Shown: positions 8,825 to 12,260 of the stretch, one piece after another | How positions within the stretch are numbered: position 1 is the stretch's first letter | How the letters are laid out: every line of letters starts with the position of its first letter | NCBI RefSeq assembly: GCF_027286325.1 | Contig: NZ_CP114588.1 | Location: 1,302,001 to 1,366,000, forward strand | Direction: 5' to 3' | DNA: 64,000 nucleotides | DNA from: Salinivibrio kushneri | Lineage (GTDB): Bacteria; Pseudomonadota; Gammaproteobacteria; Enterobacterales; Vibrionaceae | Program-made: the position numbers and the translations under genes | Notes under the pieces: generated by a model | Seen by the model: the letters and a program-made list of their open reading frames with translations, nothing else | The model's database searches: none | Told to the model about the DNA's origin: nothing

Positions 8825-9529
8825 CTATCTGTCCGTACGCGACGTTAGCTTATAACGTGAACCTGGATGATACAGTAATGCGGCACTGACCAACGTTTGC
8901 TGACTCCAGGTGCGGCGATGGAGCAAAAGGCAGGGCTCATCAGACTTCATCGCCAATGCCTCTTTGACTGCTGCTGATGGATTAATCGCTTCGACACTAT
9001 GCTCAATGGTGTTAACCGGGCACACTGACGACAAGTACTCATTGGGGGTGGTCTGGTTGAAGTCTTGTTCGAGATAGGCAGGCGCAAGCGCTGGATTCAC
9101 CCAGCGCTGCTCGAGCTGGAGCGGTATCTCATCACCATAGTGGACAATTTCGCTGTAATAGACGTCGGTGCCTAACATCACCCCCAAGCGCATTGCCACA
9201 TCAACGGGCGCAGAGAGGCGTTTCAAGGCATGGATGACACTGTGATAGTGCTGACCGCGTGCGGTGACTTCATCGGCAATATTACGAATGTCCATCAACG
9301 GTGATTCCGCCTTGGGTTCAGTGACAAACGTGCCTAGCCGTGGCGTGCGCTCGAGTAGCCCCTCAGTTACTAAGTCACGAACCGCCTTATTGACCGTCAT
9401 CCGGCTAACGTTGAATAGATCGCACAGTTCGTATTCGGTAGGGATACGCGTACCAACCGGCCAAACCCGTGTCTCAATTTTTTCTTCTATATAGGCTTTG
9501 ATTTGTTGATAACGAGGCGCGTTGGCCAT
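8825..9529 (-). CDS. hutC: Histidine utilisation repressor, GntR/HutC family
   Basis: A 234-residue transcription factor. Residues about 5-70 form the GntR winged helix (TEYELCDLFNVSRMTVNKAV recognition region, then the wing at LERTPRLGTFV); residues about 95-230 form the UTRA ligand-binding domain, which in HutC binds urocanate. AAGGAA precedes the ATG. It is transcribed in the same direction as the hut enzymes, with a palindrome in its own leader that suggests self-repression. The direct link to the hut operon and the matching operator sequences make the assignment strong. Confidence 0.93.
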   Translation of the reverse strand: MANAPRYQQIKAYIEEKIETRVWPVGTRIPTEYELCDLFNVSRMTVNKAVRDLVTEGLLERTPRLGTFVTEPKAESPLMDIRNIADEVTARGQHYHSVIHALKRLSAPVDVAMRLGVMLGTDVYYSEIVHYGDEIPLQLEQRWVNPALAPAYLEQDFNQTTPNEYLSSVCPVNTIEHSVEAINPSAAVKEALAMKSDEPCLLLHRRTWSQQTLVSAALLYHPGSRYKLTSRTDR

Positions 9530-9560: not shown

Positions 9561-9740
9561 TCAGGATTGATGAAGTCTCGCGTAAAATCAAGTGAATGAT
9601 AGAAAACTTGATTGTTTATCACGCTGATTCTCGCGTAGAAATTATTGTTGGGATGACTTGCATCACAAATGCGGGATCTTCATAATCGTTATTCTACTTG
9701 CACTGTGCGGTTACTTACTAATCGCCAAAATACACTTCAT

Positions 9741-9761
9741 GTGCCACTTGGTGTGTGGCAC
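9741..9761 (+). promoter_or_regulatory. tRNA-Thr anticodon-like hairpin in the thrS leader
   Basis: A 7-bp stem (GTGCCAC with GTGGCAC) closes a 7-nt loop, TTGGTGT. This is the exact geometry of a tRNA anticodon arm: U at the position equivalent to 33, then GGU at 34-36, the anticodon of a threonine tRNA. It lies a few bases before the ribosome site (about 9767-9773) of thrS. In E. coli, ThrRS represses its own translation by binding a leader with an anticodon-like hairpin near the ribosome site, so the same mechanism is inferred here. Confidence 0.75.
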
Positions 9762-9782
9762 CACTGAGAAGGATTGTTATCA

Positions 9783-11711
9783 ATGCCTCTAATTACTCTC
9801 CCTGACGGTAGTCAGCGTGCTTTTGACCATCCGGTTTCTACTTACGATGTCGCCAACGATATTGGTCCAGGCCTTGCCAAAGCTTGTATTGCCGGCCGTG
9901 TAAATGGTGAACGTGTTGACGCGTGTGATCTTATCGAGCAAGACGCCCAACTGGAAATCATTACCGCGAAAGACGAAGACGGGTTAGAAATCATTCGCCA
10001 CTCATGTGCGCATCTTTTAGGTCATGCGATTAAGCAGCTTTTCCCTGACACTAAGATGGCGATTGGCCCAACCATCGACAACGGTTTCTACTACGACATA
10101 GACATGGATCGCTCGCTCACCCAGGATGACCTGGACGCCATTGAAAAGCGTATGAAAGAGTTGGCGAAAACCAAATATCAGGTAGTGAAGAAAAACGTCA
10201 GCTGGCAAGAGGCGCGCGACACGTTTGAAGCACGTGGTGAATCATACAAGATGGAAATCTTGGATGAGAATGTATCACGTGACGACCGTCCGGGCTTGTA
10301 CCACCACGAAGAATACGTTGATATGTGTCGTGGCCCACATGTGCCAAACATGAGTTTTTGTCAGAACTTCAAAGTCCTGAATGTGGCTGGCGCTTACTGG
10401 CGTGGTAATAGTGACAACAAAATGCTGCAGCGTATTTACGGCACAGCATTTGCGGATAAAAAGCAACTTAAAGCACACTTAGTGCGTCTCGAAGAAGCCG
10501 CGAAGCGCGATCACCGTAAGCTGGGTAAGCAACTTGACCTGTACCACATGCAGCAAGAAGCGCCGGGTATGGTCTTCTGGCATCATAACGGCTGGACGAT
10601 TTTCCGTGAGCTTGAGCAATTTATTCGCGACAAGCTGACTGAGTATGATTACCAAGAGGTGAAAGGGCCGCTTATCATGGACCGCGTGCTTTGGGAACGT
10701 TCGGGCCATTGGGATAAGTACGCGGACTACATGTTCACCACCAATTCAGAGAACCGTGAATACGCCCTTAAGCCGATGAACTGTCCTGGGCATGTGCAGA
10801 TCTTTAACCAAGGCCTTAAGTCGTACCGTGATCTACCGTTGCGTATGGCGGAATTTGGTAGCTGTCACCGTAATGAACCCTCAGGTGCATTGCATGGTTT
10901 GATGCGTGTTCGTGGCTTTACCCAAGACGATGCGCACATTTTCTGTACTCCAGAACAGGTGCAGCAGGAAGTCAGTGCGTGTATCGAGATGGTCTATGAG
11001 ACATATCAGACCTTTGGCTTTAACAACATTGAAGTCAAGCTCTCTACCCGTCCAGAAACACGTGTCGGCTCCGACGAAATGTGGGATAAAGCCGAGCAAG
11101 CCTTGAATGAAGCCCTAACGGCAATGGATATTCCATTTGAAATTCAAGAGGGTGAAGGTGCATTCTACGGACCTAAGATTGAGTTTACGCTACATGATTG
11201 TCTCGATCGTGCATGGCAGTGTGGTACAGTACAACTTGATTTCGCGTTGCCCGAGCGCTTAAGCGCGACCTATGTAGGGGAAGACAACGAACGTCATACG
11301 CCGGTGATGATTCACCGCGCTATTCTGGGCTCGTTGGAACGTTTCATCGGGATTCTTATCGAAGAATACGCGGGACACTTCCCTGCGTGGTTATCACCAC
11401 AACAAGCGGTTGTGATGAATATCACGGATAAACAAGCAGATTACGCACAAGAGATTGCGAAAAAACTGCAAAAAGCTGGATTTAGAGCCTCTGCGGACTT
11501 GAGAAACGAGAAGATTGGCTTTAAAATCCGCGAACACACTTTGAAGCGTGTTCCGTATATGTTGGTTTGTGGTGACCAGGAAATGGAAGCTGGCGAAGTC
11601 GCAATACGGACCCGTAAAGGTAAAGATTTGGGTAAAATTAAGATTGATGACTTCTTAGCGCAGTTGCAGCAAGAAGTGCAAGATCGAACACTCAATATTG
11701 TGGAGGAATAA
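9783..11711 (+). CDS. thrS: Threonyl-tRNA synthetase
   Basis: Class II synthetase charging tRNA-Thr; 642 residues, identical in length to the E. coli enzyme. Order: TGS domain (about 1-60), editing domain with the [10 protein letters not shown] zinc-like motif near residue 73, catalytic core with the [11 protein letters not shown] motif (zinc-binding Cys) and [15 protein letters not shown] class II motif 2, then the anticodon-binding domain from about 535. Start is the ATG at 9783; an in-frame TTG nine bases earlier is rejected because GAAGGA is well spaced from the ATG. infC starts three bases after the stop, so the two are coupled. Confidence 0.98.
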
Positions 11712-11714
11712 GGT

Positions 11715-12260
11715 ATTAAAGGCGCAAGAAAAGCCCCGGCAAAGAAGAACGCTCATCGTCTAAACAACGAAATTCGTGGTGTTAAGGAAGTCCGTCTGAC
11801 TGACGCCGACGGTGAACAAGTGGGTATCGTCCCATTTGATGAAGCACTCGCCAAAGCAGAAGAGGCGACTCTTGACTTGGTAGAGATCAGTCCGAACGCT
11901 GAGCCGCCGGTTTGTCGTATCATGGATTACGGCAAATTCCTTTACGAGAAGAGTAAAGCTGCGAAAGAGCAGAAGAAAAAACAAAAGACTATTCAGGTTA
12001 AGGAAGTTAAATTCCGTCCTGGCACGGATGTAGGCGACTATCAGGTAAAACTACGCAACCTGGTTCGCTTCATTGAAGAGGGCAACAAGGTCAAGGTCAC
12101 TATCCGATTCCGCGGTCGCGAAATGGCGCACCAAAGCATCGGTGTTGACGTGCTGAACCGCTTGAAAGAAGATACTGCTGAAATTGCTTCAGTAGAAAGC
12201 TTCCCTTCACGCATCGAAGGCCGTCAGATGATCATGGTTCTGGCCCCAAAGAAGAAGTAA
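11715..12260 (+). CDS. infC: Translation initiation factor IF-3 (AUU start)
   Basis: IF-3 keeps ribosomal subunits apart and proofreads start-codon choice. The protein is 181 residues when started at ATT 11715, matching the 180 of E. coli; a start at the GTG at 11820 would remove 35 conserved residues, including the basic N-terminus and the LNNEIR segment. The non-standard AUU codon is the known basis of IF-3 autoregulation: excess IF-3 rejects it. Only three bases separate it from the thrS stop, and the TAAGG around that stop serves as ribosome site. The C-domain runs from [11 protein letters not shown] to the end. Confidence 0.96.

Follow-up and report, generated by a model that had tools for sequence, protein, structure and literature searches.

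The thrS locus and its leader

The window, by which we mean the whole 64-kb stretch of Salinivibrio kushneri DNA that was analysed, carries thrS, the gene for threonyl-tRNA synthetase (ThrRS). This gene heads what we take, from their sequences, to be infC, rpmI and rplT, and a presumably GntR-like regulator gene lies divergent from thrS at 8825-9529. The features of the leader and of thrS are the following:

9658-9686, forward strand: probable thrS promoter, TTGCAT-17-CATAAT (from the sequence); all eight genus members have the same two hexamers
9707-9725, forward strand: second leader hairpin, GCGGUUA[CUUAC]UAAUCGC, without a threonine anticodon; one-sided changes (G-C/G-U) only, in L086 and L088
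9741-9761, forward strand: anticodon-arm mimic, 7-bp stem and 7-nt loop (sequence, folds, covariation, covariance model)
9762-9766, forward strand: CACTG, 3' of the arm; the same in 108 of 110 leaders and in 100 of 106 class-wide leaders
9769-9773, forward strand: AAGGA, probable Shine-Dalgarno sequence (from the sequence); unchanged in all eight genus members
9783-11711, forward strand: thrS, threonyl-tRNA synthetase, 642 aa (ORF list; aligns over its full length with chain 1qf6 of E. coli ThrRS)

The arm joins GTGCCAC (9741-9747) to GTGGCAC (9755-9761) by seven Watson-Crick pairs and encloses the loop TTGGTGT (9748-9754), in which U33 corresponds to 9749 and G34-G35-U36 to 9750-9752; in RNA form it reads GUGCCAC[UUGGUGU]GUGGCAC. 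It directly precedes the thrS ribosome binding site, and 21 nt separate its end from the thrS ATG at 9783. The promoter TTGCAT-17-CATAAT was not picked up by a simple promoter scan; we infer from the sequence that transcription would start near 9693, giving a leader of about 90 nt. Three stretches were folded, and the hairpin is part of both the minimum-energy and the centroid structure of each; their total fold energies improve only moderately on those of shuffled sequences (z -1.56, -1.71 and -2.12). A 7-bp Watson-Crick stem with a loop of the form NU[CGU]GUNN occurs at a single site of the window, 9741-9761, and the same pattern was found on average 0.225 times (maximum 1) in 40 dinucleotide shuffles of it. 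One such hairpin per 64 kb is therefore unsurprising, and it is its place and its conservation that carry weight.

The window ThrRS is 90% identical to that of Enterovibrio coralii and 76% identical, position by position, to that of Escherichia whittamii (L052), which represents the E. coli type. The structure of E. coli ThrRS with tRNA is known (1qf6), and residues 575 N, 600 E and 609 R, which we take to be those that read the anticodon, are the same in the window enzyme as in 1qf6. Entry 1kog is presumably the structure of a fragment of the E. coli thrS operator. A reading of infC that begins at ATT, a rare start codon, 3 bases past the thrS stop is also possible (11715-12260, 181 residues); its start in the ORF list is a GTG further downstream, at 11820. 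The E. coli infC start codon is AUU too.

Conservation and covariation of the arm

A total of 110 thrS leaders were picked by the ThrRS protein alone: that of the window and those of 80 named genomes, seven more genus members and 22 family members (the family set comprised 30 loci listed among 197 genomes, eight of them from the genus). An arm with a 7-nt loop and 6 or 7 pairs, followed by CACTG, is found in 108 of these leaders, 16-25 nt before the start codon. In the other two leaders, the arm site has decayed (L077, an insect endosymbiont) or holds an arm of 5 bp with the loop UUCGUAG (L081, an Anaerobiospirillum). The 108 arms reduce to 79 distinct 33-nt sequences, and the sampled genome sets may overlap.

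Among the 79 distinct arms, 98.7% of 553 base-pair cells are paired and 120 are double changes. The initial annotation had proposed to look for covariation of the stem across relatives, and compensatory double changes, with both sides altered, are indeed seen in six of the seven pairs. The covariation score is 0.665, against 0.243 for shuffles, none of which gets there, and sliding the partners by 1-3 columns as a control left 28.6-58.4% of cells paired. The hairpin is thus more than the chance occurrence that a single window would allow, because it is conserved across leaders. The arm of L052 is a row of the same alignment, and the window arm is in this way homologous to the E. coli-type arm, with a stem kept by covariation. 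The threonine anticodon-arm mimic first noticed in the thrS leader is confirmed.

The similarity to domain II of the E. coli thrS operator consists in the place before the thrS ribosome site, the 7-bp stem and the 7-nt loop that holds a threonine anticodon, with G35-U36 in the anticodon register; the window and L052 moreover share a GUG...CAC stem base, followed by CACUG. The window arm differs in reading GGU where E. coli has CGU. When compared with the anticodon arm of tRNA-Thr(GGU), its loop starts with UUGGU, as in the tRNA-Thr genes of the same genome; however, positions 37-38 are GU in the arm and AA in the tRNA, and the leader is without any other tRNA part.

Distribution in Gammaproteobacteria

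A covariance model, R1, was built from the 79 distinct arms. On the whole 3.46 Mb genome it gave one match, the thrS arm (E = 4.5e-11, with the window among the 79 training rows), and at a class threshold of E 0.05 or better it matched in 130 of 369 sampled genomes of Gammaproteobacteria. Of the 139 matches listed, 110 were read, window included. ThrRS is encoded directly downstream of 106, and 105 of these leaders have the arm by rule; in the remaining one (L235), visual inspection shows an arm whose loop has 8 nt. The other four (L225, L234, L237 and L241) have no ThrRS nearby, also within 2-kb stretches, and the same applies to the second matches L257, L262, L263 and L264 and to L270 and L271. 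Conversely, 30 class genomes negative for R1 yielded 29 ThrRS and 26 readable leaders. No arm by rule was found in 24 of these 26, one of them (L277) holding a degraded look-alike; the other two have an arm with 6 of 7 pairs and GU, which looks real in L275 and weak in L300. In a phylum sample, 60 of 299 genomes matched R1, eight of them outside the class; these eight belong to one family (best E 2.8e-6), and none of the four matches examined is at thrS. The arm is thus a feature of much of Gammaproteobacteria but not of the whole class, and the 299-genome sample holds no evidence for it at thrS outside the class.

Searches with Rfam 15 gave no match at gathering score in the window, and the three matches at the window leader are all far below that score. 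There was no Rfam match at the thrS leaders of L052, L004, L013, L142 and L155 either; two matches in these five loci correspond to a Phe leader and a tRNA, not to the thrS leader. T-box leaders of Gram-positive thrS genes link thrS output to tRNA-Thr and bind the tRNA itself, using a specifier codon. The window differs from such leaders in having no Rfam match. Our literature search, in one open-access library, returned nothing on conservation of the thrS operator beyond E. coli.

Several other arrangements were met during these searches. The thrS leader of L185 (G630:C281:41634-42266) has two tandem anticodon-like arms 37 nt apart, GTGGCCT[TGCGTAG]GGGTCAC and GTGACCT[CTCGTAC]CGGTCAC. At about 1000-1040 of L257 (G581:C18, near 33394) there is an orphan copy of the operator arm, TGTGATCT[GTCGTAT]GAATCACCACTGGAGCATA, with no thrS nearby; it is nearly the same as the thrS arm of that genome (L176) and lies directly 3' of a stretch resembling a tRNA 3' end, and it looks like a duplicated tRNA-plus-leader piece. 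L271 (G037:C1:3332474-3333627) has three equal weak R1 matches about 250-290 bases apart, away from thrS and not tRNAs by ARAGORN, which are perhaps a repeat array. Finally, a tRNA-Val(GAC) gene is found directly upstream of thrS in seven gammaproteobacteria (L281, L287, L291, L293, L297, L276 and L142); six of these leaders are without the arm, and L142 has both.

What the loop keeps

G35-U36 is invariant in all 108 arms of the ThrRS-selected leaders. Position 34 is C in 59 of them, G in 43, U in three and A in three, and position 33 is U in 79, G in 17 and A in 12. The same two letters are invariant in 105 class-wide arms, though the model by which these arms were retrieved favours G35-U36; position 34 is there C in 65, G in 26, A in seven and U in seven. 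Vibrionaceae are divided between G34 (24 of 47 leaders) and C34 (23). A tree of the ThrRS proteins (FastTree) requires at least 14 changes at position 34, at least 18 at position 33 and none at G35-U36. Invariant G35-U36 next to a variable position 34 is what would be expected if the enzyme reads G35 and U36. The expectation that relatives keep a threonine anticodon thus holds for G35-U36 and is mildly contradicted elsewhere in the loop: AGU occurs in three of 108 and seven of 105 arms, and 29 of 108 are without U33. A passage in PMC7373986 states that the E. coli thrS stem-loops contain G and U, which are identity elements in tRNA-Thr, and a table in a review gives G34, G35 and U36 as identity letters of bacterial tRNA-Thr (PMC9976931). 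From the G34 of this table the arms depart, more than half of the 108 having C34.

Unexpectedly, positions 33 and 34 are coupled. U33 accompanies G34 in 43 of 43 arms of the first set and in 26 of 26 of the class-wide set (the window being in both), and a letter other than U33 is found with C34 in 26 of 59 and 11 of 65, respectively. On the tree, no change at position 33 falls on G34 branches (length 3.89), 12 to 13 fall on C34 branches (length 2.46) and 5 to 6 elsewhere; if changes were distributed at random by length, 0 of 13 on G34 branches would have a chance of 4.5e-6, a rough figure obtained by parsimony on one tree. Perhaps G35-U36 stays exposed next to G34 only through the U-turn; alternatively, a purine in front of GGU could be selected against as a false Shine-Dalgarno sequence.

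The search for a second arm in the leader

The second domain of the E. coli operator is likewise described as mimicking an anticodon stem (in parts of PMC9976931 and PMC7373986), and both operator loops are said to read CGU (a passage in PMC7373986). Upstream of the arm, 72 of 108 leaders have a second hairpin with GU in its loop (7-8-nt loops, 5-bp stems), where shuffles would lead one to expect 19.5. Several Vibrio, for example, have CGGTA[TTCGTGT]TACCG, and Enterovibrio-like genomes have TTTTG[ATTTGTAC]CAAAA. The rule used may miss a true second arm, since in L052 it picks AGAGUGAA, as opposed to the CGU given in the review. Such a hairpin is found in 35 of 39 other Vibrionaceae leaders as opposed to one of eight in the genus, and the single genus case is about 137 nt before the loop of the arm, thus upstream of the presumed promoter. 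A search of the eight genus members for unbroken stems of at least 4 pairs with a 6-9-nt loop, GU near its middle and a loop start at -125 to -40 found no second arm with a threonine anticodon. The further tRNA-like arm suspected by the initial annotation has a counterpart in the hairpin at 9707-9725, which is without a threonine anticodon. On this negative evidence the window does not show the complete two-armed E. coli operator, from which it would further differ in its leader of about 90 nt, if the presumed start is right.

It is conceivable, although we hold it to be rather doubtful, that the loop follows a grammar unlike that of tRNA, in which G34 demands U33 and C34 frees position 33, giving two ways to present G35-U36 with many switches between lineages, and that the genus has a single-arm operator, with the ThrRS dimer held by one arm or bridging two mRNAs.

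Position 34 and the tRNA-Thr isoacceptors

GGU in place of CGU had originally been read as the mimic tracking a different tRNA-Thr isoacceptor: GGU would have been selected since the genus relies on tRNA-Thr(GGU) and is without tRNA-Thr(CGU). The genome itself fits, with two tRNA-Thr(GGU) and two tRNA-Thr(UGU) genes and no CGU gene found by a pattern with one mismatch allowed. An exact CGU pattern over the 110 genomes matched 25, of which 19 (14 of 50 and 5 of 60) were read as having a true tRNA-Thr(CGU), these being Enterobacterales, the insect endosymbiont L077 and Aeromonas diversa. In raw counts, C34 is found in 16 of 18 arm-bearing genomes with a CGU tRNA as against 43 of 90 without, a skew that is due to Enterobacterales. 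The 108 genomes comprise 43 with C34 and no CGU tRNA, 16 with both, two with the tRNA and no C34, and 47 with neither. C34 arms without a CGU tRNA by pattern occur in Vibrionaceae, Shewanella, Pasteurellaceae and Pseudoalteromonas. The two genomes with a CGU tRNA and another arm are A. diversa (L031), with GGU, and Lelliottia, with UGU, and the AGU arms of L037, L068 and L070 stand beside GGU and UGU tRNAs only. Nine tree-independent pairs differ in C34, and on average 8.3 of these show no difference in tRNA-Thr(CGU); there is no link in such pairs, which are too few for a strong test. The tRNA pattern may miss odd tRNA genes. A looser pattern was run on 20 genomes; among the matches listed, which cover 12 of these genomes in full, a CGU tRNA is seen in L031 and L032 only and no tRNA-Thr with AGU is seen.

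The tracking of isoacceptors is therefore very improbable and we abandon it: C34 occurs where the patterns found no CGU tRNA, AGU arms where they found no AGU tRNA, and position 34 changed many times on the ThrRS tree. Given the even split of position 34 in Vibrionaceae and the lack of an isoacceptor link, GGU in this genus is, as far as sequences can tell, one of several neutral states.

Other explanations for the hairpin

Attenuation by a leader peptide, in which a short upstream frame with threonine codons controls thrS, would find a candidate in a 17-codon frame (9739-9792) that starts just before the arm, overlaps the thrS start and has two adjacent Thr codons; some short frame with at least three Thr codons exists in 34 of 108 leaders, a count made without a control. 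We reject this scarcely credible alternative, as no more than 37 of the 79 distinct arms retain an ATG at this position and 74 of 108 leaders lack a short frame with at least three Thr codons. Moreover, there is no terminator-like site between the arm and the ATG (the sole one found by a terminator scan is inside thrS), and the arm covaries as RNA. That the hairpin is due to chance, or is purely structural without binding ThrRS, for example as a standby site or an mRNA-stability element, could appeal to the shuffle count and is extremely unlikely in view of the arm's recurrence in nearly all leaders, its double changes and the invariance of G35-U36 beside varying positions 33 and 34, which structure alone would not need.

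Probable autorepression of thrS and its meaning

Very probably, the hairpin serves as domain II, the arm bound by ThrRS, of a translational operator of thrS, by which ThrRS would repress its own synthesis as in E. coli. The structure, the covariation, the invariant G35-U36, the fixed place, the homology to the E. coli type and the conserved enzyme are all observed. Binding, repression and relief by tRNA-Thr in this organism are inferred by analogy with E. coli, for which the sources, in the parts available, describe ThrRS on the hairpins as blocking binding of the 30S subunit (PMC3858243; PMC11088916) and tRNA-Thr as competing for ThrRS (PMC7373986). Free ThrRS would bind its own mRNA at the anticodon-like loop, where it would recognise G35 and U36 the way it does in tRNA-Thr, and, once bound next to the ribosome binding site, would keep the 30S subunit off. 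tRNA-Thr would compete for ThrRS, and ThrRS output would in this way be matched to demand. The base at position 34, which is G in this leader and C in that of E. coli, would be read little or not at all. A comparable principle is described, in a part of PMC6542539, for yeast HisRS and AspRS, which bind an anticodon-like arm of their own mRNAs; these are other enzymes of a eukaryote, and no sequence relation is claimed.

The autorepression reading is supported by the presence of the arm in 108 of 110 leaders, by the 106 of 110 matches at ThrRS genes, by covariation and by G35-U36. Against it count the lack of a second threonine-anticodon arm in the genus, the G34 of the table and the 24 of 26 armless leaders in genomes negative for R1.

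The thrS operator of E. coli is a textbook example of an mRNA that mimics a tRNA. The arm described here is probably a new instance of it, and the comparison adds evolutionary data on a broad scale. The arm is common to many gammaproteobacterial families, and its covariance model is absent from Rfam. Evolution has kept only the two letters that were called identity elements in E. coli work and has let the wobble letter go. Two predictions would follow, namely that any base works at position 34 and, less expected, that G34 depends on U33 in order to work. From a changed anticodon in a mimic one need not conclude that the tRNA partner has changed.
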